From NCBI RefSeq assembly GCF_019649055.1, contig NW_026570223.1:1922001-1986000 (forward strand): a DNA stretch of 64,000 nt, written 5' to 3'. The first letter of the stretch is position 1. The number at the start of each line of letters is the position of its first letter. Position numbers and translations under genes: made by a program. Of the stretch, positions 16,601 through 55,501 are shown one piece after another. Below the pieces are notes generated by a model that saw nothing but the letters and a program-made list of their open reading frames with translations, was not told where the DNA came from and searched no databases. This DNA comes from Paramacrobiotus metropolitanus (taxonomy: Eukaryota > Tardigrada > Eutardigrada > Parachela > Macrobiotidae).

Positions 16601-19600
16601 GGAGCTAGCAGCCAGTTTGCATCGAACATGCAAAGCAAACCATCGTTAGGCGTAAGTTTCCCAGAAGTACAGGAAGACGTGATGCAGCCAAAACCGTACC
16701 CATTGTTTTCAAATGCTGAATATAAAGTCATAAAAATAAACCTATAGCAATTAGCTAATTGCTGATTAGCATACCCATTAGTTTTTGATTTCGTTAACTT
16801 AAAACTGTACCTTCTCAAGATTGTTGCGTAATCGGAAGGATAAAATCAAACTATGCACACACCTTCGCATCTTGGGCACGTAACAGTAATTGTGAATTGA
16901 TGTGATTGTATGCGCAGGCCAATCAAGACGCCGAAACGAAGAGTGTTGATGAGAAAAAGGAAGACGCAATGTCCGTTGCCTCTAATGCTGTGGTCAAACG
17001 GGCAACGTACAATGGATCAACGGTGGGATTACGGGAACTACCGGAGCCGAAACAACGTGTTAGCGGAGCACTGGGGAAGAGCCTTTTACCGGTACGCTGC
17101 CGTTAAACTTGTCCTTGCGCAGTTTGATGCTTAAATGGTAATTACATCTAAATGTTTTACAGATTAAGCGCATACAACACAACAACGTTCTCAAGTTTTA
17201 TGGGATCGTTATCAGTGATGACAATACATGCGAAAGCGTCGTCGGAGACTTGTGTTCCAAAGGATCTCTGACGAAACTGCTGTATCGCGACCGGATGCAG
17301 TTAGACTGGAATTTCAATTGTGCCTTATTTAAAGATCTTACTGCAGTGAGTGACGATGATTAACGGAAACCTTGTTAGAGACTTTGGCGCTTTCATCACC
17401 TTAATTAGTTCGTTGTAAATCACACTGCTTTTCGAACACAAGCTGCTTCTTTATTGGAAGGACCATAGTACGCGTTGAGAAAACTTTTCGCGTTAATGTT
17501 GGAAAAAAAGTGTGGGGATATTCAGTTGTGCCCTTTTTATGTAACTGGTACGATAGCATACAGAGTTGGCCAAGTAAAAATTATGTGGCATGTGACCCAT
17601 TGTAAACCTTGTATGAACTTGGATAACCGATAAATTTTTTTCTGTATTTCATAACGGGCGTTTCCGTTCGTGCTACAAGGTCACATTTATCGGCCGTGCT
17701 ATAACCAGATCGATATTTTTAACCGCTTATTCAAATACATTAAATCAATTTAAATCTACGGTAGGTCAGAAAACGCTTTGTGTCTCACCATAAAAATGCA
17801 CCTTGTTTGCTTGAAAAAATCCATCCTTGGTGAATCACGGAGAAGATTAGGACATCTTATTATTTTCATTTCGCACTTGGTTTCGTGCAACTGCAGCACG
17901 GTGCTGAGCAGTTGAGTCCGACTAGGTAGATTCTTTATCTTGTATCTGTTCTGTAGCGTTTTTAGTTATTGTGAATTTCTTTGTAAATCTACTCGCAAAT
18001 ACAGTAAAGATCAAGAAAGGGTAGCTAACACCCATAGTTCTTGCTCCGATAGTTATCCCTTTCTTTGTACAGGGTTTTGCACCTCTAGTACACTGCAATT
18101 TTATCTGTGATACGTATATATGTTTAAATTAAAGCGCTCTTATTTTTGGTAGTTTTACTTATTTTTGGGTTTCTGTGTATGTGTAAGTTTGGACATATTT
18201 TTGTACTTATTGCTTTCTTGCCCATATTGCAGGGAATGAACTATCTTCATCTGTCAAATCTGCAGACACATGGAAATTTATCGTCACATGTGTGCCTTAT
18301 AGACAGTAACTTTGTTTTAAAAATTGCCGACTACGGCCTGGGGCATTTCCGGACGGACGAAGAACTTATGCCGATATTTGACAGCGATGAAAATCGCGAT
18401 TTTACCAAGTTATTTTGGAGATCGCCTGAATTGCTCAGAATACGAATGCCTCCACAAGGGACACAAGTAATAAATCCTTTTTATGTTCCTTTTTGCTTGT
18501 TAATGACAAATCCGCTCTTTTATTTCCTTGCAGAAAGGTATGAAGATTCCTGCAATCCACTTTTTCTGCAAATCTGAAATTGATGACAGCGATAGTTTCG
18601 TGCATTCTTGTATCCTTCATTTGTAAAAATCTTGAAGAACTGTCGTTGCAGGAGACATATACGCTTATGCCATTATCCTGCAACAAATTGTGCTCAGAAC
18701 CTTGCCATTCAGAAGTCCCGATGCCAGTAAAAACAATCTTACACCTAAAGAAATTTTACTTGAGGTTAGCGAAAACCAAACGTGCAGCCTTGTATGTCGG
18801 ATTGTCGGCATTTTACATACAGGAAATCCAGTCAAACAGGAAAATTCAATGTTACAATATCTGTAATAGGAAACTGGTTATACTATGTGGCTTTTTGTGA
18901 TTGGATATTGTTGAAAATATTTCTACAAAGTTTTCCTACTGGATTGTCAAAAAACCATTAATGCATTTGACCGCCCAGTACATAACCGCGCGATTTCTCG
19001 TAATTCAGTGCGACGAACACAAAACGCAGTATCGACGCTCTGGATATCATTAACAAACTTGTATCCGGAAATCTCCAGTTCTCAAGTTTAACAGCCCCTC
19101 AAGTAGGCCGCCATTGACGCTGTAGTACATAGTAAACGACTTTGGAGGAGTGATCCGCCTGTTTGATCGGGCCTGTCCTTTCTCTACGGACACAAAAGCC
19201 AAAAGGCAGAATATGTCCGGGTGTTAATTTGTTGTGTGTTGTAGGTAAAGAAAGGCACAATGCCGCCTTTACGGCCTCGAGTGCCCATCTCCTCCTGTCC
19301 GCCGGCCTTTGTCGACCTAATCGAACAGTGCTGGGATGAGAACCCTCTCAGTCGGCCGCCCTTTATCCGGATCCGCGAAACACTCTTGAAGATCCTTGGC
19401 CGCTCCGGCGACAATATCGTCGATAATCTTATCCGCTCCATGGAAAAGCATGCTGCGCAGCTGGAGTACGAGGCCGACACGAAGATGCGCGAGTTCATGG
19501 AAGAGAAGCGCCGGTCGGACGATATTCTGAGCCAGTTGTTGCCCAAGTAAGTGCTTTCTACTTGTAGCATCACATTCCTATTCTATACGAAGTTCTTACA

Positions 19601-22600
19601 AAATCAAAGCACGCAACTTACATTACACGCAATACGCACAAAGCTCCTTTCTTGTACATAGATTGTATTTGGTGGGATTAATGTAAACATGTAATCGCAG
19701 TTTTATAATTGCGCGGTTGCCTTTCTGATTCGGTTTTTACAATGACTACATTACAATTGTTTTCTAGGTTTGCGTATGTTAATCGTGTTCCACTTGCAGA
19801 AACGTGGCTGCTGCTCTGGCTAAAGGTCAAATCCTTCAGCCGGAAACGTTCACCAGTACAACGGTGCACTTTAGTGACGTTGATGGTTTTGGTGATCTGG
19901 TGGCTGAAGCCGTCCTACCCAAGGACACCATCGCCATTTTAAATACTTTATACTTGACCTGTGATAGTTGCGTGGAGAAGTACGATGTGTACAAAGTGGA
20001 AACCGTTAAGGATGCCTATCTGGTAAGCCTTCAATTTCTCAGACCCTCCGTTAACCTATAGCTTGTTATTAGATATACAATACTGTTAGTATTACCACTA
20101 ATACCATTATTAGCGGGCTACTCTGCAGTGTTCTCCTACTCGTAGATTGTTAGTGGTCTTCCGAGCCGCAATGGTTTGAAGCATGCCGGAGAAATTGCCA
20201 CACTGGGACTAGTGATGCGACGGGAAGTGTCAGCCATTAAATTTGCGGGACTGACTTTTGAACCTAAAGCCAAACTGCGCTTGCGAGTTGGTATTCATTC
20301 AGGTGAGCGATTTATTTCCAGCCCAAAAGATATACGAACTGGTAACGCAGCGAAGTGAACAGATCAAGGTTAATATGAGAGGAATACTGCTTTAAAAGCC
20401 TCACGAACTTGACATGAGCTAAAATTGGTTGCGTAATACGTAGTACATTTTTACGGTAGATGTGTACTGCACGAATTGCGATCTAAATTAGCTTCAGGTT
20501 ATTGCTTGTACAAAATTGATCGAATATACTCACAGACAACCACTAGCCCTGCACCACTTCCATTTAGCCTTCGATATATTTAACAACTCCATACAACGCG
20601 GTCACTTTTGCCGCATTTGACGGGATTAAGCTCTCTCAACTACCGTTGTAGTCCAGTATAAAGCGTCAAGTTTTTTCATTTTCCCTGACACATAATATGG
20701 GTCCCAAGCGTCGGTTAAAACATAGCGAACGATATGACTGTCAGGCTAGTCTGTTTGACTTTCAAGGGTGGAAATGACGTAGAGCTGTAGAGTATTGGGA
20801 AGATAGGTCACTGTACATATGGTTGCACTTTGACAACTTAAGCATCAGTATCTACACTAAAAGATAATCCAGACGCCTTCAGATTTACTCCATAAAGGCG
20901 TACCGCCTCGAAACCGAAAAGCTTTGTTCTAACGGAATAAAGACTTTTTTCAAAAATCTAGATTTCTCGGAAACGAAGCGTAGCTAGGGTTAATTAACTA
21001 AGCATGTATTTCCGGTCTCTTATCTGGAACTTTTTTCCCAGATATTGGTGCTTTATGGGTAATACTTGCAAAATGTACAGGGAACAGTTGTTTGTCTGCC
21101 CACTGCATTGGTACATACCGATCGAGTCCTGCTCAGGTCTGAACGATTGCTTCCAGTCCTTAATTTCCGCTCGCTTTCTCCGCTTTTTATTGTAATGACA
21201 ATTTCCGTGAGGTTGGGGTGCCAGGATGGGATTGTTTGATTAACTGCTTGGGAAAGTAGCGGGATTGTGCATTTCTTGTCTCCTTTCAGAAGAATTATAA
21301 TATCTATATAATTACAGGCTTTACATCGTACAATAGATTTTCAAACTTCTACCGATAGATTAATATTGGTCAGCACTACCATAACAAAAAAGTGATAACC
21401 AGAAAAATGCACATTAATTTTGTGCATTGGCAGACCGAAGCGGTGCATTTTTTTAAGAACGTACGAATGCACATACAAGTATGCTGCATCTCCATGCTTA
21501 TCGGTAAAGCACTGAATAAACTTATACAGTACTTTATTTATTAAGTAACAATGAATTTGTTAAATGACTTTGCAACAAACGCACGTAACCCACTTCCAGC
21601 TTTTTTTGGAAATGGCTGTAGTTACTGGGCGTAACAGACGGACATTCATTTTTGCGTTTTCGCTGAATAAGATCTTCGCTGTGCTCCGGCCGAAAATGTG
21701 GATTTTATGTGGTGCAACATAATTAAGGAAAACAGTGGTTCTTTTGTTGTTCGTTAATTATTGCAAAACAATTGATCGTCCTTAAACATTAACAACTGAT
21801 TGTGGCGGCACTGAAACACGATTGGTCGATCGGAGGCTCAGTAGAAGTGTTCATATCGCAACTGATTGACCGACTGATCAATTTGAATATCTTGTTCCAT
21901 TAGGACCATGTGTTGCTGCGGTCATTGGAACAAAAATGCCCCGTTATTGTCTGTAAGAAAAACCGCTGATGTGCATTTTGCTGTAGATTTTCCTAATATC
22001 GAATTGTTTTTTCAGTTTTGGTGATACTGTCAATACGTCCAGCCGAATGGAATCCCATGGAGAACGTATGTGCCGATTCATGTATTGGTGTACAGTATAT
22101 TTCTGTGTTTTGTTTGGGGAAATTGCTTACCAAACGGTTGTTATCGCAGCCGGAAAAATTCAGTGCAGTTTATCAACAAAAGAAATACTGGATAAACTTG
22201 GTGGATACATCTGCTTTTCCAGAGGGGAAATTGAAGTTAAGGTAAATGCGATAATTACCCATCATGCAGTGCAGTTGTCGATTGACCGACGATTAGGTTT
22301 TTCCTTCTGGAACGTGTTATCTTATTTTGCATTTTTAATTTTTGGAAGCACTGCTTTGCTGATTTGTTGAGTTATCAGCACCAATGTGGTGCATGCAGTG
22401 AGATCTTATTACGTTTTGCCTATATGAAAATCTGATCGCTTTGGCATGGGCAAAACAGTACCCTGGACGTTTCGAACTGTTTTAATGATGCTACCATAAT
22501 TGTTTTACGAGTATCAATGTTCACTTAAATCAAACTTCTGAAATTTGTTTAGTTTCGTTGATTTGATTTTTGTATTTGATTTTATTGTGTTTATTTTAAG

Positions 22601-22779
22601 TTTTTATCTTCAGTACGTTACTCTCCGTCGTTTTGGTTAATTTTTGAGTTTCAGTAAGACTTTACATTGCGCACCGACGGTACCGTTTTAATTTAAAATA
22701 TAAAAATGAAATCTTTTCGCTTTTGCAGGGTAAAGGATTGATGGAGACGTTTTGGATTGTGGGCAAAGATAGCGATTAA
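10671..22779 (+). CDS. Receptor guanylate cyclase 1, 23 exons, 1074 aa
   Basis: Exons: 10671-11001, 12850-12921, 14117-14419, 14528-14571, 14993-15031, 15151-15228, 15294-15431, 15506-15736, 15804-15936, 16230-16320, 16519-16651, 16918-17091, 17163-17345, 18233-18466, 18534-18537, 18652-18764, 19245-19546, 19800-20022, 20146-20302, 21904-21952, 22016-22065, 22150-22241, 22729-22779. It makes cGMP from GTP at the cell surface. Seen: signal peptide (about 1-26), natriuretic-receptor-like ligand domain to about 456, one membrane helix (461-484), kinase-homology domain (532-800; HGNL and ADYGL instead of HRD and DFG), a signalling helix with EEKRRSDDILSQLLPK (about 850-867), and the cyclase domain with FSDVDGF, YKVETVKDAY, VGIHSG and YCLFGDTVNTSSRMES. 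The guanine-selecting Glu (KVET) and Cys (YCLF) and both metal Asp are kept. Unusual: DIVG is DVDG, the kinase Lys is Arg (VGLREL), and exon 15 is 4 nt long. AATAAA at 23048-23053 could end the transcript. Ligand unknown. Confidence 0.93.
13021..13236. mobile_element. Foldback MITE in intron 2 of guanylate cyclase 1
   Basis: A 216-bp inverted repeat. The outer arms read TATAGGGGGCAAAACTAA inward from both ends and continue through ACGTGTTCCAC/GCGTGTTCCAC. An inner pair around GCTGCCGTCACCCG carries the pairing almost to the centre. The GGGGGC ends are flanked by TA on both sides, which suggests TA target duplication. It has no coding capacity. The superfamily is not certain. Confidence 0.8.
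18534..18537 (+). other. 4-nt micro-exon AAAG of guanylate cyclase 1
   Basis: Between TTGCAG and GTATGA lies AAAG. Joining ...GGG ACA CAA + AAAG + GAGACATA gives GTQKGDIYAYAI, matching the family-conserved GTxKGDVYSF segment of the kinase-homology domain. Without these four bases the frame is lost. The flanking introns are 67 and 114 nt. The paralogue has the same micro-exon at 31387-31390. Confidence 0.88.
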
Positions 22780-24270
22780 AATTTTTTTCGTTCCTTTCTG
22801 CACAGTTGGAATAAGAATATCTGTGTAAAATTTTTCGTTCTCTATAAATACGGATAACGGATAATTGGTTCGTTTTACGGATAACGGTAAATGATTTCAT
22901 CTGGGGTGACTGATACGATTTGATATGTGGATGCTAAATTCGGCTACGGTCAGTGTCGTTGTGGCCTTAATATTCAACCTCTCCGCGCTCTCCACAACTT
23001 AAAATCGACTCATGCTTAATGTATTTTTCATAGTGGCCTTAATTTACAATAAAAGATGATAAATTAAAAAAACGTTATGAATACCTTGATGGGAATGTCG
23101 ATGCTTGAAATGTGGCACAACTTCATCGAACATTGACATTTCTGGCGGAAGGGTTTTCGAAATGTTGCTGGTTCCATTAAAAACAAGCGCGTAAATAATT
23201 AAATTTTAAATTACCGTGCCCTTCCGCATTGTAAAGCGATGAAATATGGATTCGATAATTGACCATGAATATTACGAAAGCTGCGGAATGAGTTCACTTT
23301 TGGCAAAAAGTCGCTGCGTTAGGTATCGGTGTGTACAACGATATGCAAATGCAATAATGCACTGTTTATATAGAGTGCCGGTATTTGATTATTTAATCAA
23401 TACCCATGTGCGCACATGATTCCAGTCCCCAACGGGCAATTGTTTCTTTAGGAAAAACTTTGATGGTTTAATTACTTTTTTCGTAAATTTTTTTAAAGAT
23501 AACCTGTAATTTGTATTTTTCAGAGAAATTGAATTCGCATTTGTATTTTTCACGTGCAAACTCAGGAATACGTATGAGTATCTGTATAAACAATCGATCA
23601 CGTAAGACTTTGAATTAATTATGTGTCCGCTTTTAGAACAGGAAAGTCAAAAATGACCTAGCAAAAAAAAACTGTTGAAAAATGCAAAACAGCTTTCCCT
23701 ACTTAGCACATGGTGTCCCTTTCATCTGTGGAAAGGATAATTATCCGGCAGCCCTTTTGGGCATTTGTATACTGCACGCAGCCAATACTGGTCATGCATA
23801 ATGTAATGGCACTAAGCTGGTGTTGGTTTACAAAACAAACACTACATGCGCGTATAATACAAGAATAACGTTATATCCACCGACGGCTGCTGCAGCTTGT
23901 CAATGGTATTTTCATTGTCGAGTAGTCTTAACACTGACAAAGTTTTTTCTCACCCGTTCAATCCGTGGGATCGATACACTGCAGCCCGCCGACAGGTGGG
24001 GGGACGTTGTGATGCCAATAAAACGCGGCCGTTTCGTGCCCATTATCATGACAGCGTTTTGGAGTTTTAGCTGGTTACTTATCGCACAACGCGTGTGCTG
24101 TATACTTATTGCCATATACTATCCCATTAAATTAAGTGTGCACTCCAATTAAGCAGGGATGGGCCGGTGGGCCGCTAATTACAATGTCGAACACCTATAT
24201 ATACACCATGTCCAGAATGTTAAAGCGTCCTAGACACAATACCAAGCGTGTATTATGCCGTGCCGGTATC
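22780..24270. other. Intergenic region between the two guanylate cyclase genes
   Basis: About 1.5 kb. A plus-strand AATAAA at 23048-23053, 270 nt past the upstream stop, is a candidate polyadenylation signal. The rest is AT-rich with no recognised gene. The 3' end should contain the promoter of the second cyclase; see the TATA entry at 24196. Confidence 0.5.
24196..24203 (+). promoter_or_regulatory. Candidate TATA box of guanylate cyclase 2
   Basis: TATATATA lies 75 bp before ATG 24271. If used, transcription would begin near 24225, which excludes the upstream in-frame ATGs at 24184, 24208 and 24217 and supports 24271 as the start. Confidence 0.35.
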
Positions 24271-27200
24271 ATGTTGCGCTGGATGGTTTTGGTATGGTCC
24301 ACACTGCCACTGGTCAGCATGGAGACGCTGCTGGCGTGTTTTATGTCGGAAGGCGGTAGTGATGATCTGTTTTATAATTATCAGCGGTCCGCCGCGGCCG
24401 TGGAGTTGGCGCTGGAGTATACGAATCAGGTTCTGCTGCCGGGAAATATCACTATACAGCGGCTGCACGTGGATCTGGGTCCCACATGCCCCGATAAAGT
24501 GCATGTGGTCAGTTATGCCATGCAGCTGATGGAGAGCGGTATCAAGTGCGATGTCTATGTTGGACCGGGTAAATAAATCTAGAAACTTTTGCTGCACGAA
24601 ATTACTGCTGACTGATTTATAAAAAATTATGAATTTATAAAAAAAATGAATTTAAAATGAATGAATGAATTTATAAAAAACCCGTGATTGTCAGACTTGA
24701 ATTTCTTGGTGTATCATCTTCATGGAAATTTATCTAGCTGTTTTTTCTAATAATCAAATATTTTTAATATTTTAAAAATCAATCTGACTATATAAATTGC
24801 ACCCGGATCCGAATGATATTGTACTTTGTATTAATACCGGCATTTAATTATTGGTCGTATGCATACACTACAATTTACAAATCTCCGCATTTCAAAAAAT
24901 ATTTCCTTGAATGGTTCTTTGTGGCATCACAAGTTCACAATTGTAAGGGAGTTGCATTGAACAGAAATTAATTATACCGATGGAGCTTAACGAAGCCGTG
25001 CAGTGCAACCGTGCTTTGTCAATAAAATGATTTTATCAGTGGACATATCTGTGCATATCGTGATACGAAAGCCATAACGTTTTAAAATTAATAATGTTGA
25101 GTATGCGGCTATCGCGTGGTAGAACGTAGGTCATACAAGAGCAGTGCAGTGGCTAATAGCGGAAATTCACAATAACGTACGTATGTGCATGCTGCGCATA
25201 TCCCGTTAAAATGCGTCAAGAAATGTAACAAAAAAGGGTTAATTTTTTCCCTTAAAATTTTAACAGTTTTTTCTTCAGTTTATGTAGTGGAATTACGCAG
25301 CAGAAAGCTATATTGCGTCATATTATCTGCATCTTGACAAGGTAGTAAATCTGACGAGACATTTTTTCACAGGATGCAGTGCCGCAGCGGAAGCATTATA
25401 CGATATTGCCACCTACTATAAAACTTTAATCATCGGCATGCCAGGTAGGATAAGTAGAGCCTATTTAGTGTGCGGTGGGGGCACTTTTCCGGCGATTAAG
25501 TAACACAAACGCAAAAACTGGCTTATTCTAACCGTTCCCTATTCAACTTCGTATCAGCCGTTTACGGAACTTTTAAAGCGGCAAAAATCAGGTTTAGGAT
25601 TACTTAATCTTCTTAAATCAAAATTACATATATGACATAATATTAGCTAATTTTTGCACTTATTTTTTAAATTGCACTGACTGAAATTTTCAGCAGATGT
25701 AGCTCGAAAATTTAATTGCTCGGAAATATGTATGTTGACAATTTCGGCGCGATTTCTTTATCCTAACCCGATTGCTTAGCCGGTGGAGTGGGGACGCTGG
25801 CACCGAAAAAAGACTACTCGTATCTGACACGTATATCCCTGACACATGTCAACACCGCACAAGTCCTTCTCCGGTTTCTCCGCTGGCGCAACTACACCGA
25901 CATCACCATTATTCAGGATACGGCGACCAATTTTTACCAGCAAATGGGCATGGTCTTCCAGATTATTTACGATTCCGACGCCATGGACTTAGCCGTTACC
26001 ACTAAATGGCGGATGATTAATTCCAGTAATGTGGACGAGGTTGGCACGAAACAGTTTCTGGAGGAGAATCAGAACCGCTCCAGAGGTGTGGTGTTTATTT
26101 GAACGGCTACAGTAGCGTTAGTTAAGAAGTCCATATAATCCAATTTGTTGCAGTGTTTCTCTTATTGATGCCATCGGCGGCACTCCGAAAACACATGGTA
26201 TACAAACGGAACTATTGATTAACTCTGTACTGCACCTTTTTTACGAATTTCACCTTTTTCTATGCATTGCAGATATGGGCGGATAAGCTGGGAATGACTA
26301 ATGGGGAATATGTAAGAATAACATCGAGCGGTATTTTTGCTTAAAAGCCGACTGGAAATGGCAAATAAATTACAAAAAAATAATCGAATTAATCTATAGT
26401 TTAAAAAAGGTAAAATTAATATTTCTTTCTTTTACAGTCGTCAGTAGTTTCATTTCGAAGTCAACTGGGAATGGCAAATAAATTCCAAAAAAAAATTAAT
26501 CGAATGAAATCTATAATCAAAAAAGGTTAAAATGGATATTTTCATTTCCAGCCGTAGTAATTGTTTTATGAAATTTAAGGCGGGTGTTGTTGTTTCTGCG
26601 AATCGAATATATTTATGTAGGTATACGTCGGAGTTAACATATTCCCGAGCCGGATTTGGGGAAACTTCTCATCCGAAGTCGGCGGCAAAAACGACGAGGT
26701 AATAAAATATTGTGCGCGGTTTGTTGTTCCACCTGTGCCTTGTCCAACCGTCACTGCACAAATGTGATGTTTGAAGGTGGCGAAGAATGCTTATCGATCG
26801 CTGTTAATGGTTGGCTTATCTCTCACTTCCGGCGGCTCTTACGAAATGTTTTCTTCCGCTGTCAAAAAATTATCCACCACAGTGTACAATTATACATACA
26901 AACCGGAGGATGAGGTAGGTTTTTGTTGTTGTATATTGATTTTTAACAGGGTTTTTTGTCGTATATCCAAATAGATTCATTCCATCTGTCGTCATGAATT
27001 ACCGTTTTTAATGGAAGGTTTCTGTTCCCTATTCGACTTTTATTATTTACCGGCACTCCACATTATGATCATAATGACGATTTATTTGTTATATGGTTGT
27101 CTTTGTTATGGCGACAGATGGCGACAGCAAACGAAACAATTTTTTTAAATACTAGCTAGCACTTTGAATTTACGTAGAAACCGTTTTTCTTTTTTACGAG

Positions 27201-30200
27201 TACATAATTACTGTATTATTCTGTTCAATCACTATTTTTTAAATGTTTGCCTTACCAGGGCACATTTTCCGGGTCCAAATTCAGAAAAATCTGATCTTTG
27301 GCAGGAACATAGTATACCATCGTAGTGTATAAAAAAAAGTAATTTCAGCTGCTGACACTCAAAGGGCGTGGCCAAACAAAATTAATTAGTAAGTAATAGT
27401 CCATACTATTGCACTGCACTAGTGTAGTACTCAAACAGCTGTTTGTATCAGTGTAATAATAAGTAATAAATCAGGAACTCATCTTCTGCCGAATGACAGT
27501 GTACGACTACAGCACGCTTAAAAAATAATGAACTTTAATATTTAACAAGTTTCGGGAGCACACTGCACACAGTGAGGAAATTAGCAAAATCCAGAATCCA
27601 AATACAGTGACAGTATGAGGTACGTACTGTTGCACTACCGCAAAGAATCGCAGCCACAGAATGGTTTTTCTACTGTGTCGTCTTAACGTTCGCACATGAA
27701 ATTTTCCATTAACCATAATGTGGCAAAATGTAACGTTTCTGCAAGAGGTGAAACTTTCCTGATATGCTTATTTTATAAAAATGCTACGTTTCTGCAAGAG
27801 GTGAAACTTTCCTGATATGCTTATTTTATAAAAAGCCTGTGCGGGTATTGCGCTAGTGCATTGTAGGAGCATGCAGTATTACTCACTTATTAATTTTGTT
27901 TGGCCCCGCCCTTTGGGTGTCAGCAGCTGAAATTATTTTTTTTAATATACTACGATGGTATACTATGTTTCTGCCAAAGATCAGATTTTTCTGAATTTGG
28001 ACCCGGAAAATGTGCCCTGGTTAGTTTAAAAAAGTTTTGAAGACTTGAGTACTTCACTTTTACATTATTCAAATACGCACTCTAAAGTGTGGTAATTTAT
28101 TTATGTAAAATGTTAACATTGTTTTATTCGGATCCAGGTGAACATCGTAACCAGCCATTTCTACGACTCAGTTATCTATTATGGATCACTCATTCGTGAT
28201 GCGGTTAATGCCGGGAATGATTACCGTGTCACCGAAAACCTTATTGCACTGTATCAGGATGGAAATTATTCCTTCCAGAGCCCGGTGAACGATCTGGTCC
28301 ATATTAACCAAATCGGCGACCGGCAAAGTGCCTACAAAATCCAAACTTACGATTACCTACGTGGTGACTTTGATGTAAATTATATTAATTTTGTATTGCA
28401 ACTTTCCAATAAAATCTATTTAGTTTTTTTAAATATCGGCTTCGATTTATGCAAATTACAAATATACGGTAAGTGTAAATTTCTTCTGGAATCTTTTTCC
28501 CAAAACTATTCTTTCAAATTTTAATTCTTAGAATTCGTAGTCTAGATTCATAAATCTTATTATTGTTTATTTTTTTTTATTTATGTGTTTGTAACACGAT
28601 TTTGCATTAATTATAAGAAAAATTTTTACGGTTGAAATATATTTTTGCAAAATAGGATTTTGTGACGGTCACACCCAACTTTGACTTCGTTATCCGCGGT
28701 GAGATTTTCTGGCCCTCGGGCAACGCATCCCTCCCGGACAACACCCCAACATGCGGCTTCAAGGGCAATAATCCAGCCTGCATCAAGCGTAAGTGTCCAA
28801 CACTATAATATGACGAATAATTACCATACTTTCACTCCGTTTTATGACAAGTACCACTTTGCATGACCTTTTTGCAGCCGTACCCCCCGCTACTATCGCC
28901 GTTAGTGTGGTGATTCCTCTGGCTGTCATTCTCGCGGGAGTGATTGTGGGAATTGTCCGCTTTCGCAAGTGGGTACTTGTGATACCGTCGCAATAACATA
29001 CATACACGTATTGATTGATTGTTTTAAATATTGCCGGCGATAATTATCGGCTTCACCGGTCATAGTGCGAAAAACAGTACAGATGGATTATTGATTAGAA
29101 AAATATGCGCTGCTTAATGGACGCGGAATTGTTGTTGCTCGATGACCTTCCGGGCTGTAGCGGCTGTGTTCTCTATAGATATGTGGAACGGAATTCCGAT
29201 CCATTCTGGTGGCGGATATTTGTTACGGAGCTGTCGATTCAGGGAAATACGACCAAGTCTATGGCCGGAAGTCAGGTGGCCTCCACAATCAAAAGCCACG
29301 TATCCATGGTAAGTCGCCATTGCGTCATGTGTGAACGTGGATTAAAACTTGTGAATGCATGAATATTGCATGCTCAAGTCAGCACCGCATTCCAGAATAA
29401 AAAATGAATCCTCCTTCCTCAAAATTTATTTTCACATTAAAATACGGTGCTGGCGCAGTGAACGAAATCTGATGTTAACAAATTATGATGGCATTTGCGT
29501 CTCTTCTGCTGCTGCCGGCCGACAGTGCGTTTGTAGACGTCTGTTATAATTAGAAACCGTTAACGTCTGGAGCTGTTGTAGTGCGTTGGCACCTTGGCGA
29601 ATCACTCGATCCCCTCAAAATTCGTTACTGTACTGAAAACTTTAGACTTGTCTGAACAAAATAAACTAGTACTACTCGTAGATTCTCTCAAATGTAAGTT
29701 TGATTTACCAATATTTTTAGAAAAATTGTCGGCATTAAGTACGAAGTTTGATATGTATCGGATGAAAGTAGACACTTAGCCACCGAACTGTGGTACGCTG
29801 ATACTCGATAGTATGTACTACTACCGAAATTAAGAATTTATTTCGTAAGTAACACAATTAATACATACAATAGATATATAGAATACTGATACATAATAAA
29901 TATAATATATTTATTTCTCGATATATGCTTATGTATATTTCTAATATACGTATTTTCTGATGTACTGAATAATTTTTATATTGCCGTAGGTGGACAAGCA
30001 ATCGGTGAAACAGGATGACGACGCGACGACATATGTCAAAGCCGTATCAACACCTGGAGCACCCATTCGTGCTATTTACAACGGAAATGTCGTCCAGCTG
30101 AAACAGCTGCCGGAACCGCGGCTAAGAGTTACTCCCGTTCTAGGCAAAAGCCTCCATTTGGTAATTCACGTTTGGTGAAAATACAGCAGCATTCTTTTTT

Positions 30201-33200
30201 CTGTCTCCTTTAAAGGACAATTATATATCATTAAAAGCTTTATTATCCAAAGCACTGACTGATAAAATTTTGCTGATATCACATCATAATTTAAAAAAAA
30301 AATAAATCTGAAGTCGAACAAATATAAGTTAGAATTAACATGCCAAAAAATTAAGTCATGTACGTAATTGAAATAGCTGGTGCACAATCTCGAGCAGCAG
30401 TATTACTGTAAATTATTAATCGTTTTAATGACTGCACTGACCGATTAAATAGATTAAACGGATCCAGCATCAAAATGTGCAGAAATTTTCCGGAATTGCG
30501 GTTAATGATGACAACCACTGCGAATTCATAGTGGGGGAAATGTGTTCCAAAGGGTCGCTGACGTTCCTCTTACAAGAGAATCATATGAATCTCGACTGGG
30601 AATTTAAAGCTGCCTTGTTTAAAGATCTAACAGCGGTAAGTCGCGTTGTTCGAAAAAACAAGCAATGAGAGGAAATGTATAGTAACTAACAGGGACAAGT
30701 ACCGTATTTATTTAAAAAACCTATCAGTACTACTGTATTACTCCAGTAAAATAACTTGAGATCGAGGGCTAATGTACATTGTACACATCATTGTGACATC
30801 AACGATCGTTTAATTCATCGTATTCTTAGTACGGTATTCAAAATTAATGTAATGCCACTAGGGCGGTTATAACGCTAAACTGAATACGCAACAGAATATT
30901 GGAAAACTTATTTATTTATAAGATATATTTCATAATAATTCTTAATTCCACTATAAAATGAATGTTTACATACTGTTGCTTACTAGCCTATTTGTTTTTT
31001 AATAATCTTCTGACATTTTCTTCCAACAGGGCATGAATTACCTGCATTCCAGCAGCCTGGTATCCGTGGGCAATTTAACCTCGCATACCTGTCTGGTGGA
31101 TAGTAATTTTGTCCTGAAGATATCCGAATACGGCATGTACTACTTCCGCCAGGAAGAGGATCTGGCGCCGGTGACCGAGCACGATCGGGAGGGCCGCGAT
31201 TACGAAACGCTCCTCTGGCGTGCACCAGAACTCATGCGCCGCCACATGCCACCGGAAGGGACACCGGTAAGCGGAAACAGCTCCCCAATATTGACAGACC
31301 GGGGTCAGATTTCACAATCTGAAGGTCAATGTTACTATGTAATAGACAAATACAAAAAAATAATGCTGTATTTTTTGTTTTTGCAGAAAGGTACAAACAT
31401 CTCGTAAAAGGAATCGGCATGCATAGCAAAAGAGGATAGCAAAATTTTACATCAAAATTCATACTTTTCAGACGAGAAATATATGTCGTTCATTAACGGG
31501 TTATGTAATTGTTGTAGGTGATGTATATAGTTATTCCATAATTGTCCAACAAATATTGCTCAGAGCACCGCCGTTCCGGAATGGATTTCATGATCCCGGT
31601 TTGACCACGTTGCTGGACAGAGAAATTATTATGGAGGTTAGTAACTTAGTAGTACACATAAGAGGCATTTACTCAGTCGATTTTATATCAATTAATAATC
31701 ACTACATGGCCGGATTTCGCAAGTCCTTAGTGGGTATTCAGGCTGCCCGCGAAAATGTTTGCGAATGCGCGCTGTTCACAACTTTTTTTGAATACTGTTT
31801 GGCATTCTGTGGCCAGGTGGCCACATCCCTTAATTGCATGCAGGATATACGTAATAAGAGAATCGTAGTTCGGTGACGTTGGCACTAATCAACTTGCATC
31901 AACTTGCTTTGTCCATGAAAGCGGAGGCCGCCGCATATCAACAAGCAAATAGAAGAGAATAAATTTTTCTAAAAAAATTAGCTTTAGTATCGTAACTTAC
32001 TCGCACATTACCAATCGTATAGATTAAACGCGGTACCGTGCCTCCCTTGCGACCACGCATCCCGCTGACAGCCTGTCCGGCGCATTTCCGTGACCTTTTA
32101 GAGCAGTGCTGGGATGAAAATCCACTGTTGCGCCCGGCGTTCCAGCGCATCCGAGAAGTCCTGACCAAACTGCTTGGACGAGCGGGCGATAATATTGTTG
32201 ATTACCTGATCCGCACCATGGAGAAATACGCGTCCAAACTGGAGGCGGAGGCCGAGGAAAAAATGCGTCAGTTTATGGAAGAGAAACGCCGATCGGAAGA
32301 TATCCTCAGCCAAATATTGCCCAAGTGAGAAGAAGTTTGAATGTATCGTTAGTGAGGAAAATTTGTCAAGTTGTCTGTTGTGCGGAAACGGCAAACCATT
32401 CAAGGCTGCTCCTCATATTTATATGTATTTATATATAAATATTATCACCACTACGCATAGTACAAATGGCGATTATTGTGAGCTTCGTAGTGGAATGGAT
32501 TGCAGAGCCGGATTAACCCACGGGAGTTTATAACAGAGCGTTACAAAATTTCGTTTACTAAATTTCGTTTACAAAATTTCGTTTCGTTTTGCGTTACAAA
32601 ATTGGTTTCGTTTTTTTTTGTTAAACGCAGAAATTAAGGAAATTTATTTTTGGTCAGATTTTTGTAGTCGTTATTTTCCGCTATAGATCCGTAGCGGAAA
32701 TAATTATTATTTATCTGTATATACAAATTGTGTACTGTCTGCGTTAAATGTAAAAAACTTCAACGGATTGTAAGTAAAGCAGGTCGAAGCATCTGCTGTT
32801 GGTTGTCATTAAATCATTAGATTGAGTACTTAATTAGGTGTTTTTTTACTGTATGTGATGCAGATCAATTGCTGAACGGTTAACCAAAGGTCAAACAGTG
32901 ATCCCGGAAACGTACGGCAGCACAACGGTGTATTTCAGTGATGTGGACGGTTATTCAGAGCTGACCACTGAAGCCACCACACCTCTGGATGTTGTCCAGA
33001 TTCTCAACACCTTGTATACTGTCAGCGACACGATTATCGAGAAATTTGATGTGTACAAAGTGGAAACGGTACAGTATGCATGCAGTGCATTTTGCCGAAA
33101 AATATGATCTTGCTGTCATTATGCAGGTGCAATGTTTTTTCAGGTTAAAGACTCCTATTTGGTGAGTGTAGAATCTAAGCATTAGTAATGCTTGATATCG

Positions 33201-34557
33201 CAGCATATTATGCCTTCAAATGTTAAGGATGTTTGAAAAATGGAAGCATGGAATACTGTGTTGCTTTACGAAATTACAGCGTATAGATAATTTATCATTG
33301 TACAGACATCTGTGAATACTGTAGGGATCGTGATACTAAATGTTAAACAGAAAACGCTGCGTAGTTGAACGCTTCCTCAAGATACCAGTAATTTTAAAAT
33401 TCTCGGATATGTTTTTAATTTGTAATGTTTGTATGTTTGTAATGTTCAGTAATTGTGTAATTTGCAGGTTATAAGTGGGCTTCCAGTACGCAACGGCATA
33501 AACCATGCTTCTGAAGTGTCTTCCTTGGCTCTGACCCTACGCCGTGAAATAAATTCCCTAAAAATATCGGGTTTAAGTTTTCAGACTAAGCGAAAACTCC
33601 TTTTGCGTGTTGGCCTACATTCAGGTACGGCATACACATGCTCGATGCCTGCTCGACGTTTATTCAATTTAAATTAACAAATATTAGTAGGATTATGCTT
33701 AGTGCTTTTAATATAAAGAGATCGATAGTAGAATTTTCGTGTAATACCTGCGCTATGTTCCGTTTTGGTGTTGCTGATTAGCATGGCGAGCTTGATTTGA
33801 TAAACTGCATCGAACAGCCAATCTGTTGAAATTCAACGGATTACGAACAGCTGCAAAAAAAAAATTGCAAAATTGCTGCGGTTTTGCAAATAAAATAGCA
33901 CCAAATTTAAGCAGCAATATAAAACAGCCAATAATACAGTTAAACCGCCGATGCTTTATCATATTGTGCTTACAGGTCCCTGTGTAGCGGCAGTGATCGG
34001 ATTAAAAATGCCAAGATATTGCTTGTATGTATGCATTCTATAATGTACGCATAATGCGCAACACCGGCCAAAAAATTTATTAATCTGGGACTTTTATTTT
34101 TGAAGATTCGGAGATACAGTGAACACCGCCAGCCGAATGGAGTCCCACGGGGAACGTATGTACCATACTAACAGACCATACTATATATACTAACAGACCA
34201 TACTACCATACCATTTTCTAGTTGAAGGACAACGTAGTCCTTCAACTACTTAGAAAATGGTATGGTAGTATGGTTTGAAAATGCTACTCGTATAAGTTAC
34301 GTATACGTAACTTATACGAGTAGCATTTTCAAACCAGTCTGTGTGTGTTACTTATGTTAAGCTTTTATAAACGTTTATTAGAATTTTAACTAACCATCTG
34401 TTTTTAAAATGCAGCTGGAAAAATTCAGATGAGCATATCGACAAAAGAGTTACTGGACCAAATTGGCGGCTACATTGTGGTAAGCCGGGGCGTCATTACC
34501 GTCAAAGGCAAAGGTCCTATGGAGACATTCTGGCTGGCTGGACGCGATCGGGAATAA
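24271..34557 (+). CDS. Receptor guanylate cyclase 2, 23 exons, 1067 aa
   Basis: Exons: 24271-24568, 25373-25444, 25780-26085, 26154-26197, 26273-26311, 26621-26698, 26777-26914, 28138-28374, 28656-28788, 28878-28968, 29179-29308, 29990-30160, 30453-30635, 31030-31266, 31387-31390, 31518-31636, 32023-32324, 32864-33068, 33144-33161, 33468-33624, 33976-34024, 34106-34155, 34415-34557. Same architecture as the upstream paralogue: short signal peptide, ligand domain, membrane helix (about 451-476), kinase-homology domain, signalling helix and cyclase. The guanine-selecting Glu (KVET) and Cys (YCLFGDTVNTASRMES) and both metal Asp remain; DIVG is DVDG here too. The kinase Lys is kept (VVQLKQL) but the DYG Asp is Glu (SEYGM). 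It differs by an extra intron isolating the 18-nt exon VKDSYL and by lacking the last intron of the paralogue. Start: ATG 24271 aligns best with the paralogue; 24184 would add 29 residues. Confidence 0.92.
26346..26570. repeat. Imperfect tandem duplication in guanylate cyclase 2 intron 5
   Basis: A unit of about 114 bp is repeated with mismatches; both copies carry GGAATGGCAAATAAATT or a one-base variant and end in a pyrimidine tract with AG (TTTTACAG, TTTCCAG). The copies therefore duplicate acceptor-like sequence ahead of the real acceptor at 26620. No coding role is evident. Confidence 0.7.
27255..28020. mobile_element. Non-autonomous DNA transposon with about 145-bp inverted repeats in guanylate cyclase 2 intron 7
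   Basis: Both ends read CCAGGGCACATTTTCCGGGT inward; the first 50 bp are identical and similarity continues for about 145 bp. Each end is flanked by TTA (27252-27254 and 28021-28023), a possible 3-bp target duplication as made by PIF/Harbinger elements. The interior has no transposase and contains a 53-bp tandem duplication starting at 27733 and 27786. It lies wholly inside an intron. Confidence 0.85.
27733..27838. repeat. 53-bp tandem duplication inside the TTA-flanked element
   Basis: Two head-to-tail copies start with ACGTTTCTGCAAGAGGTGAA at 27733 and 27786 and are nearly identical. They lie in the loop part of the foldback transposon. Confidence 0.9.
31387..31390 (+). other. 4-nt micro-exon AAAG of guanylate cyclase 2
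   Basis: AAAG sits between TTTTTGCAG and GTACAA. Joining ...GGG ACA CCG + AAAG + GTGATG gives GTPKGDVYSYSI, the conserved kinase-homology segment, and restores phase. The flanking introns are 120 and 127 nt. Same position and same four bases as in the upstream paralogue. Confidence 0.88.
33144..33161 (+). other. 18-nt exon VKDSYL carrying a catalytic Asp, guanylate cyclase 2
   Basis: GTTAAAGACTCCTATTTG lies between TTTTTTCAG and GTGAGT. It encodes VKDSYL, the counterpart of IGDAYM, with the second metal-binding Asp of the cyclase site. In the paralogue the same residues are continuous with the previous exon (19800-20022). Its 18-nt length means skipping would keep the frame but remove the Asp. 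Confidence 0.85.
34197..34336. repeat. Two adjacent hairpins, one a 66-bp perfect palindrome, in guanylate cyclase 2 intron 22
   Basis: First hairpin 34197-34274: arms beginning ACCATACTACCATACC pair over about 34 bp with a 4-nt bulge and a loop of about 6 nt. Second 34271-34336: a perfect 66-bp palindrome with no loop, centred on GTTACGTATACGTAAC. They share four bases and together fill much of the 259-nt intron. Confidence 0.92.
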
Positions 34558-53600: not shown

Positions 53601-55306
53601 TAATTAATCTGACGAGTGTCTGCCACCTTGATGTATTATTCACATGCTGACTCGAAGGATACCGCTATGATCGTCACACTGTTCCGGCAGCAGCTGTACA
53701 CTCACTGGAAAAGCAACCCGAACAACTAAATGGGAAACGATCTGTCATCCCGTTAACCGCTCATCATCAATCCCTACGGAAATGAGTCAGCTCACAATCC
53801 TGACCCGAGATATAAACGAATTCCTTAAAGGTGACCCGCTGGCCGCAGCTGTGACTGACTCATCATATTCTCGTAACATACAATATCTGACAAGTACTTC
53901 AGAAAAGGGAGAAAATATTCTTTTAAATTTATTATTAGTAAAAGATTTTCAAAACAAAATTCTGCCCGCAGGTTTATTGCCGGCTTCGTTGAAAAATTGC
54001 TTTTTCGCCAGTAAAACCGATGGATATACGAAATTTTCGGCAAATAACAATAAATCTGACTCTACATATGATCAATTTTAATATTTAAAAAAAGTTCGGC
54101 TTCAGTACGTATTAAATAAAATTCTATAACATGCGGTAAGCTAGACACGTGCGATCAGTCAATTTGTGCACTTTGTCTTACTTTCTTCGCCGCGCAGACG
54201 TTATTAATTAAATCTGCACGTTATCCGCCAATTAGCCCGGGCAACGATGCAGTAGACCACAGCAATAAAAGCGTGAAACGCACATTCTGTATCTGGCTGC
54301 TTTACTCCAACCACCACCCCGCACTAGTGTGTACCCGGTTAACATATTTACTCGCTAACGAAAAACACATCTCACCTTGACGCATGGAGACCACTCGACC
54401 GTTACGGGCCAGCAGCGAGCACTGGGGCTGTGCGTGTTCCAGGATAAACAGCTCCGCCTTACTGATATTGGGATTCTTACAGCGCAGAGTCGCCTCATTA
54501 CCGAACGGTGACAAAAACTTCCCGCTGTTATCCCGCAGTGCCGCTTGTCCCCCATAAAACACCACGGTAAACAGCGTCGCCGGACTGATATCCGGGACCA
54601 ATTTGCCGTGATTATTCAGATACAGTCCACTGTAGGTTTTAATAACATAGCGCTGCTGGATGAATTCCAGTGTTAGCAACGATTCCTGTCCCCAAGGCAC
54701 ATCCTGATCACACTGGATCTCATCGCCGCGGGCGCGGGCATACCGTTTCCGTCCGATATTCCGCAGTGTGCAGACGGGATGGATGCTCATGTGAATTGTC
54801 CAGAATTCGTTGGGGACCGTCAGCCGACTAGTGCCGGAGAGTTTTTCTCCGTCGCCGCTGAGAAAATACTGGCTTTTCTCATTGCGCAACGCCCACCGCC
54901 CCGAGTGGTCATCGGCCTCCAGAATGGTAAAGTATTCCCCATCGCCCGGATGTTCCGCTTCACACGTCACATTCCCGTACTGATCAATCGACAGATATTT
55001 GCCCAGATGGCTTTTCAGGGCGATGACGTTGATGTCGCGCCCGGGAATCAGCGTCCAGAACTGTTTCTTCCGCAGCGACGTGCCGGTGACATTGACCTTG
55101 TTGCCGAATGTCTCGGCCGTCAGATAATGATTCTTGGAGTTAATCAATCCCACATTCCAGGTAAAGGTCAACTTGTCGTCGGGCTGCTGCATGGGATGGC
55201 CGTTGCCGTTGACGTGCATCGTGACGCCTTTGTTGATCGAATGTCCATTTGTGGCGCTGACTGGTTTCAGGAGATGGCGAAAACCGTTGGTGGCGATGGC
55301 CGTCAT
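50607..55306 (-). CDS. FSCN: Fascin, actin-bundling protein, 4 exons, 531 aa
   Basis: Exons in order: 55306-54376, 52725-52566, 51653-51352, 50809-50607; phase continuous to TAA. Fascin cross-links parallel actin filaments into tight bundles in filopodia and bristles. Seen: a nonconserved N-terminal tail of about 47 residues, then four beta-trefoil repeats. Landmarks are WNVGLINSKNHYLTAETFG, SLRKKQFWTL (the Ser matches the phosphorylated Ser of vertebrate fascin), GKYLSIDQYGNVTCE, KRYARA with DVPWGQESLLTLEF, VDLSANQD, CLNKYW, ISNRPIIGLRSVYGFVG and the C-terminal ASADEHSAAEWEY. The tail makes it longer than the usual roughly 490-510 aa. Exon 1 alone encodes the first two trefoils and much of the third boundary. 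Start ATG 55306 has A at -3. A minus-strand TATAAAA lies 195 bp upstream. Confidence 0.96.
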
Positions 55307-55501
55307 GTTTGGTTAGTGGTGATATAATGGAGAACAATGCCGGTAGCGAAAGGCTGTTTGCTTATTTACAAGTTACAGACCAGAATCCCGACATTGCCGT
55401 TTGCATAAGGATGAATGACAGACAGCCACTGTAATCACTGTTGCCGGCTGGTCAATTCAGTTTTTGACTGACACTGCTGTAACCGTGTACATACACGGGA
55501 T

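Follow-up and report, generated by a model that had tools for sequence, protein, structure and literature searches.

A predicted 4-nt coding exon between two introns in receptor guanylate cyclase genes of the tardigrade Paramacrobiotus metropolitanus

A 64,000-nt stretch of the genome of the tardigrade Paramacrobiotus metropolitanus (contig NW_026570223.1, positions 1,922,001 to 1,986,000 of the forward strand; hereafter 'the window', with positions counted from its first letter) carries two tandem receptor guanylate cyclase genes, here called gene 1 and gene 2. A preliminary description of this sequence proposed that each contains a coding micro-exon of four nucleotides, AAAG, within the kinase-homology domain. 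We built models of both genes from the middle of that domain onward; their features are as follows, with P0 and P1 denoting the positions of the introns to the left and right of the micro-exon.

18233-18466, plus strand: gene 1, exon preceding the micro-exon, kinase-homology domain (GMNYLH..GTQ), ending in phase 0
18467-18533, plus strand: gene 1, left intron at position P0, GT-AG, 67 nt
18534-18537, plus strand: gene 1, predicted micro-exon AAAG (Lys and the first base of Gly), bordered as AG/AAAG/GT; frame open with AAAG, early stop without it
18538-18651, plus strand: gene 1, right intron at position P1, GT-AG, 114 nt
18652-18764, plus strand: gene 1, exon after the micro-exon, GDIYAYAIILQQ.., starting in phase 1 (GA GAC)
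19245-22779, plus strand: gene 1, span of the other exons up to the stop, from predicted splice sites (linker helix and guanylate cyclase domain): 19245-19546, 19800-20022, 20146-20302, 21904-21952, 22016-22065, 22150-22241 and 22729-22779
31030-31266, plus strand: gene 2, exon preceding the micro-exon (..EGTP), ending in phase 0
31267-31386, plus strand: gene 2, left intron at position P0, 120 nt
31387-31390, plus strand: gene 2, predicted micro-exon AAAG, bordered as AG/AAAG/GT; frame open with AAAG
31391-31517, plus strand: gene 2, right intron at position P1, 127 nt
31518-31636, plus strand: gene 2, exon after the micro-exon, GDVYSYSIIVQQ..
32023-34557, plus strand: gene 2, span of the other exons up to the stop, from predicted splice sites: 32023-32324, 32864-33068, 33144-33161, 33468-33624, 33976-34024, 34106-34155 and 34415-34557

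Positions 18534-18537 and 31387-31390 hold AAAG between AG and GT exactly where the preliminary description had placed it, and the models agree with its claim that these four bases are needed to keep the reading frame. The exon ahead ends in phase 0 (GTQ in gene 1, GTP in gene 2) and the exon behind starts with two bases of a Gly codon; an insert whose length is one modulo three is therefore needed. In gene 1 as in gene 2, AAAG restores GT(Q/P)-K-GD and leaves the frame open through the cyclase domain as far as the stop; starting midway through the kinase-homology domain, the joined exons read without a break for 485 aa in gene 1 (Pfam Guanylate_cyc, E 1e-50) and 488 aa in gene 2 (E 1e-53). 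Both contain the domain pair of receptor guanylate cyclases, PF07714 (kinase) and PF00211 (cyclase). The best PDB match, with gene 1 as the query, was NPR1 (aligned over query residues 1-217), whose chains match without a gap over the motif and place a single residue between GSQ and GD. Given this one-residue spacing (GSQ-x-GD), four nucleotides are required at the junction in gene 1 and gene 2.

The same site was then compared among paralogues across the genome (169.8 Mb in 533 contigs). An approximate CAHS-like query has 17 matches in this genome (best E 6e-29), in keeping with a eutardigrade, the group to which CAHS proteins belong. A kinase-homology query gave at least 159 matches (366 candidates, 150 scored) and PF00211 at least 200, both counted by exon and not by gene. 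Like NPR1-type receptor guanylate cyclases, the proteins of this family carry a guanylate cyclase domain downstream of a kinase-homology domain; unlike them, they belong to a large genomic expansion with a variable intron pattern. We cut out 80 of the 159 kinase-homology matches. The sample consists of the first 70 listed, from which the second exon of gene 1 itself was dropped, and of 11 rows from further down the list, chosen by hand and mostly because they ended early or oddly; the other 79, a few of which are second exons of loci already included, stayed outside it. Four states occur at GTQ-K-GD: uninterrupted, interrupted by P0 alone (a phase-0 intron before the Lys codon, GTQ/AAAG), by P1 alone (a phase-1 intron inside the Gly codon, AAAG/GTGAT), or by both. 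The 80 loci divide into 12 with both introns, 13 with P0, 17 with P1, 34 uninterrupted (16 by a first rule and 18 by a looser one, L076 being doubtful) and four unclassed: L029 (uninterrupted by eye), L070, L077 (degenerate) and L078. L011 on contig C163 has a frameshifted copy on C118, namely L070.

Loci with both introns were defined from exon ends alone (a phase-0 end followed by a phase-1 start), which gave 10 loci by script; L024 and L035 were added by eye. When the intervening DNA of the script-defined loci was scanned for AG- and GT-flanked inserts of 1, 4, 7, 10, 13 or 16 nt, AAAG giving Lys-Gly was found in 10 of 10. AG/AAAG/GT is present in all 12 phase-mismatched loci (11 distinct genes, L015 and L016 being near copies), and in each the predicted exon has AG and GT borders and lies well inside the usual size limit for micro-exons (at most 27 nt). 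The motif AGAAAGGT was found within the intron of none of the 30 single-intron loci (13 with P0, 17 with P1). At the exon border it does occur, as part of the fused coding sequence, in 2 of 13 P0 loci (L010, L046) and 3 of 17 P1 loci (L020, L041, L042), as is expected of loci with only one of the introns. Since single-intron paralogues use either of the same two positions four nucleotides apart, the micro-exon is the space between two coexisting introns.

We considered whether AGAAAGGT might occur in these introns by chance, with the missing residue supplied by some other splicing. The contrast between 12 of 12 phase-mismatched and 0 of 30 single-intron loci argues against this, as do dinucleotide shuffles, in which AGAAAGGT appeared at rates of 0.04% for gene 1 and 0.72% for gene 2 (5000 shuffles) and at no more than 0.0072 for any of the 12 loci; a chance occurrence was rejected on these grounds. 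We also searched for joins using a single intron of at least 40 nt, with donors from -30 to +120 and acceptors from -120 to +30 around the exon ends. Within these bounds no such join gave the one-residue spacing in 9 of the 12 loci, including both window genes, so that the splice site that would have undercut the preliminary description, one supplying Lys-Gly by another route, was looked for in the two genes and not found. In L015 and L016 one-intron solutions exist only if GSQ or the Gly of GD is lost. L075 has an alternative donor (GTGG/GTATCG) that yields GSQVGD with one intron, the motif kept. This correctly spaced solution weighs against the AAAG micro-exon at that locus; the poor acceptor of L053 (ggaaaag/AAAG) and a further candidate 4-nt exon, TCCG (Ser-Gly), at L061 weigh against it at theirs. 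L075 is the only one of the 12 loci with a single-intron alternative that keeps the motif, and we rejected a different donor or acceptor as a general explanation. L053, L075 and L015/L016 are the weak members of the set, and for the set as a whole a fortuitous motif combined with other splicing seems very improbable.

AAAG is thus very probably a constitutive coding micro-exon, four bases long, lying between the spliceosomal introns P0 and P1, and its use in the mRNA is predicted here from genomic sequence. It would supply Lys and the first Gly base of GTQ-K-GD, holding the cyclase in frame. The flanking introns of the 12 loci are mostly short (left, median 90.5 nt, range 61-320; right, median 79 nt, range 55-284), and each is probably recognised as a unit, by intron definition. 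Exon definition across microexons is considered sterically infeasible, and in C. elegans microexon splicing has been tied to intron definition and is helped by short introns (PMC8378409). The splice sites of the micro-exon are too close for simultaneous binding, so the introns are probably removed in turn; presumably the first splice, whichever it is, creates an ordinary exon edge that the second then uses.

The letters and borders of the micro-exon were compared with those of related genes. For this comparison near copies were thinned (L015/L016, L027/L028, L030/L031 and L044/L045/L054), leaving 11, 26 and 16 genes with both, one or no intron, the last by the first rule; four close copies on contig C50 (L037, L041, L042 and L049) were left unthinned. 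The site reads AAAG in every one of the 11 distinct micro-exon genes; among genes with a single intron the figure is 18 of 26, and among those without an intron it is 5 of 16 (Fisher test, relatedness ignored: 0.076 against single-intron genes, 0.0045 against single-intron and intronless genes together). The acceptor tract of the micro-exon has a pyrimidine fraction of 0.72, against 0.61 at 37 comparison sites (p 0.008, uncorrected), an edge to which the low pyrimidine fraction (0.52) ahead of these genes' following exon contributes. Its donor matches AAG/GTAAGT at 6.6 of 9 positions, against 5.8 (p 0.012, uncorrected), a difference inflated in part by the invariant AAG, which counts toward the score. 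Genes with P1 alone come near these values (acceptor pyrimidine 0.68, donor 6.1). These comparisons of letters and borders fit, without proving, a stretch whose bases must encode a residue and at the same time form the edges of two splice sites.

The preliminary description had further suggested that skipping of the micro-exon shifts the frame and might act as an on/off switch. The first part holds: a skip would bring a stop 38 codons past the junction in gene 1 and 7 codons past it in gene 2. Tissue-specific skipping of this kind would give a receptor without its cyclase, or a decayed mRNA, and it would bring a stop in all nine of the 12 loci that were translated (exons were joined in the two window genes; the other seven were read into genomic sequence, so that the place of the stop is approximate). 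Animal microexons are often neural and regulated (PMC8797185). A UGC lies in the last 20 nt before the micro-exon acceptor in 8 of 11 genes, against 5/11, 4/12, 9/14 and 15/32 in four control sets (raw counts), a mild excess that would fit regulation rather than purely constitutive use. A frameshift on skipping is common to any 4-nt exon, however, and the splice-site scores of the micro-exon are higher, not lower, than those of the 37 comparison sites. Between gene 1 and gene 2 the flanking introns have no clear similarity (z 2.2 for the left, -0.2 for the right), though the micro-exon and its borders are identical; the conserved flanks reported for fly eMIC exons are conserved between species, which is a different comparison from the one between paralogues made here (PMC8797185). 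A genome search for SRRM_C (eMIC-like) gave no match, which is not proof of absence. Close paralogues lack one of the introns (L073 beside L075; L002 beside L046 and L052), and 30 examined paralogues encode the same site with a single intron. Regulated skipping seems unlikely on this evidence, and the on/off switch gains no positive support from the sequences.

We turned to the history of the two introns with a tree of 53 of 76 rows and 201 columns, from which near copies, distant uninterrupted rows and poor third-exon matches were omitted; it was rooted by our choice on L057, with the root state set as intron-free. Genes 1 and 2 form a single micro-exon clade with L024 and L035 (support 99/95), and the micro-exon is therefore older than the duplication that separates gene 1 from gene 2, as the preliminary description had supposed; it is common to 11 distinct paralogues. 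L024 and L035, both on contig C166, also have an extra intron in the APELL motif, seen by eye, which leaves an exon of ~38 nt directly before the micro-exon, and thus two very short exons in succession. Micro-exon genes are scattered over the tree, and a single clade of all genes with both introns was rejected in a 48-row tree from which five long branches had been left out (p-AU 2.4e-6).

When a gain is given a cost of at least 3 times that of a loss, parsimony places one gain of P0 at the base of a 37-row clade (98/99), followed by 8 losses; with a gain cost of at least 2, P1 has one gain and 5 losses. P0 was most likely gained once at that point, and either or both introns would later have been lost many times. 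We infer the direction of these changes, with P1 historically the more widely spread of the two introns. Recent changes of state are visible as well: L073, with P1 alone, neighbours L075, which has the two introns, and the intronless L002 groups next to L046 and L052, which have P0 alone. Against a history of few gains and many losses stand the weakness of the forks in a tree of 201 columns, the chosen rooting on L057, and the result of equal-cost parsimony, one of whose best reconstructions has P0 gained three times and lost three times, and P1 gained five times and lost once. This last result suits a different account, in which the two introns were gained repeatedly and independently at the same proto-splice sites; under the proto-splice-site rule, both places read like such sites (CAG/AAAG at P0, AAAG/GT at P1). 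Parallel gain demands insertion at the identical base every time and is disfavoured at the higher gain costs given above, and we regard it as possible but doubtful.

Another account holds that P0-only and P1-only paralogues differ by a 4-nt slide of one intron, with the micro-exon genes as a side product. The positions are indeed four nucleotides apart, and slides over 1-15 nt have been proposed (PMC7730772, PMC2891723). Sliding is unnecessary where both introns coexist in 11 genes, and the introns are too diverged for a comparison of homology; we consider it improbable. Among 16 pairs of paralogues intron similarity gave z from -1.9 to 3.4, except in three pairs of near-identical copies, and precise intron loss is not supported by these comparisons. 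The likeliest history remains an old pair of P0 and P1 with repeated loss of either intron, and we lean towards the fuller version of it, in which an old P1 was joined by P0 four nucleotides away and the pair was stable, separate losses then mimicking a 4-nt slide with a change of phase.

If so, the micro-exon would be a living intermediate of apparent intron sliding, and the family would be an exception to the working rule by which members of a near intron pair do not occur together and so mark single lineages. Within a single family and genome, two introns 4 nt apart occur in every combination (both, the first, the second and none), so that two debated questions become testable: whether adjacent introns can coexist, and whether sliding is in truth a gain and a later loss with a micro-exon stage in between. 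Near intron pairs are likewise two positions a few nucleotides apart in homologous genes, but they are typically said to be mutually exclusive per gene (PMC2891723), whereas P0 and P1 coexist in 11 distinct genes. With 4 nt between them, and with 13 and 17 loci carrying one alone, P0 and P1 fall well within the distance used for such pairs (~32-50 nt); on sequence evidence both are present together in 12 loci.

The preliminary description called exons this short very rare, which agrees with PMC8831610 and PMC2891723, yet exons of 1, 4 and 5 nt are known from plants. The RNA-based plant set includes 1-nt microexons in APC11 and VPS55, a size-4 cluster in RECQ3 and a size-5 cluster in peptidase M1 (PMC8831610), and a 4-nt exon is named in Arabidopsis At2g39780 (PMC550657). 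As here, the plant microexons are coding, 1-5 nt long and keep the frame; those of PMC8831610 are conserved across genes, and the introns on either side are missing from some paralogues. For one of these genes, copies free of introns were ascribed to loss mediated by reverse transcription (PMC8831610). Unlike those RNA-backed plant cases, the present one concerns an animal receptor family known from sequence, in which there are paralogues with each single intron. A maize insertion (PMC12494576) was set aside, since it is not an exon of this kind. The neural microexons that depend on eMIC/SRRM (PMC8797185) are also very short animal exons, and UGC near the acceptor (8/11 here, mildly above controls) may recall them; they differ in that the tardigrade genes give no sign of flank conservation between paralogues and no evidence of regulation. 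Stwintrons, abutting introns that are excised consecutively (PMC7730772), resemble the removal in turn proposed here, but in the tardigrade genes four coding bases stay between the introns. Among open-licence articles in PubMed Central we found no paper on tardigrade microexons, on a Paramacrobiotus guanylate cyclase, or on intron sliding with a microexon, and among the top-ranked listings of broader searches none that describes the present case. Very small exons are frequently overlooked in genome annotation (PMC8831610), and these receptors may therefore well carry annotations with a broken frame.

The two gene models differ in other places. Gene 2 has a second predicted tiny exon (33144-33161, 18 nt, VKDSYL), at which gene 1 is continuous (..VETVKDAYL, exon 19800-20022). 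The final intron of gene 1 (22242-22728) is missing from gene 2, where one exon (34415-34557) is continuous. The gene 2 intron at 34156-34414 contains long inverted repeats, seen by eye.

Matches to receptor cyclases are often clustered in the genome, as at C3:1858506-1885222, ~40 kb before the window. Near-identical receptor copies lie in inverted order at C50:793035-837048 and C50:979155-1017597, and others on the contig pairs C118/C163 and C65/C474; these copies represent either recent duplication or uncollapsed haplotypes. Elsewhere in the window, 54302-55312 (minus strand) is an open frame of 336 codons that looks fascin-like by eye.

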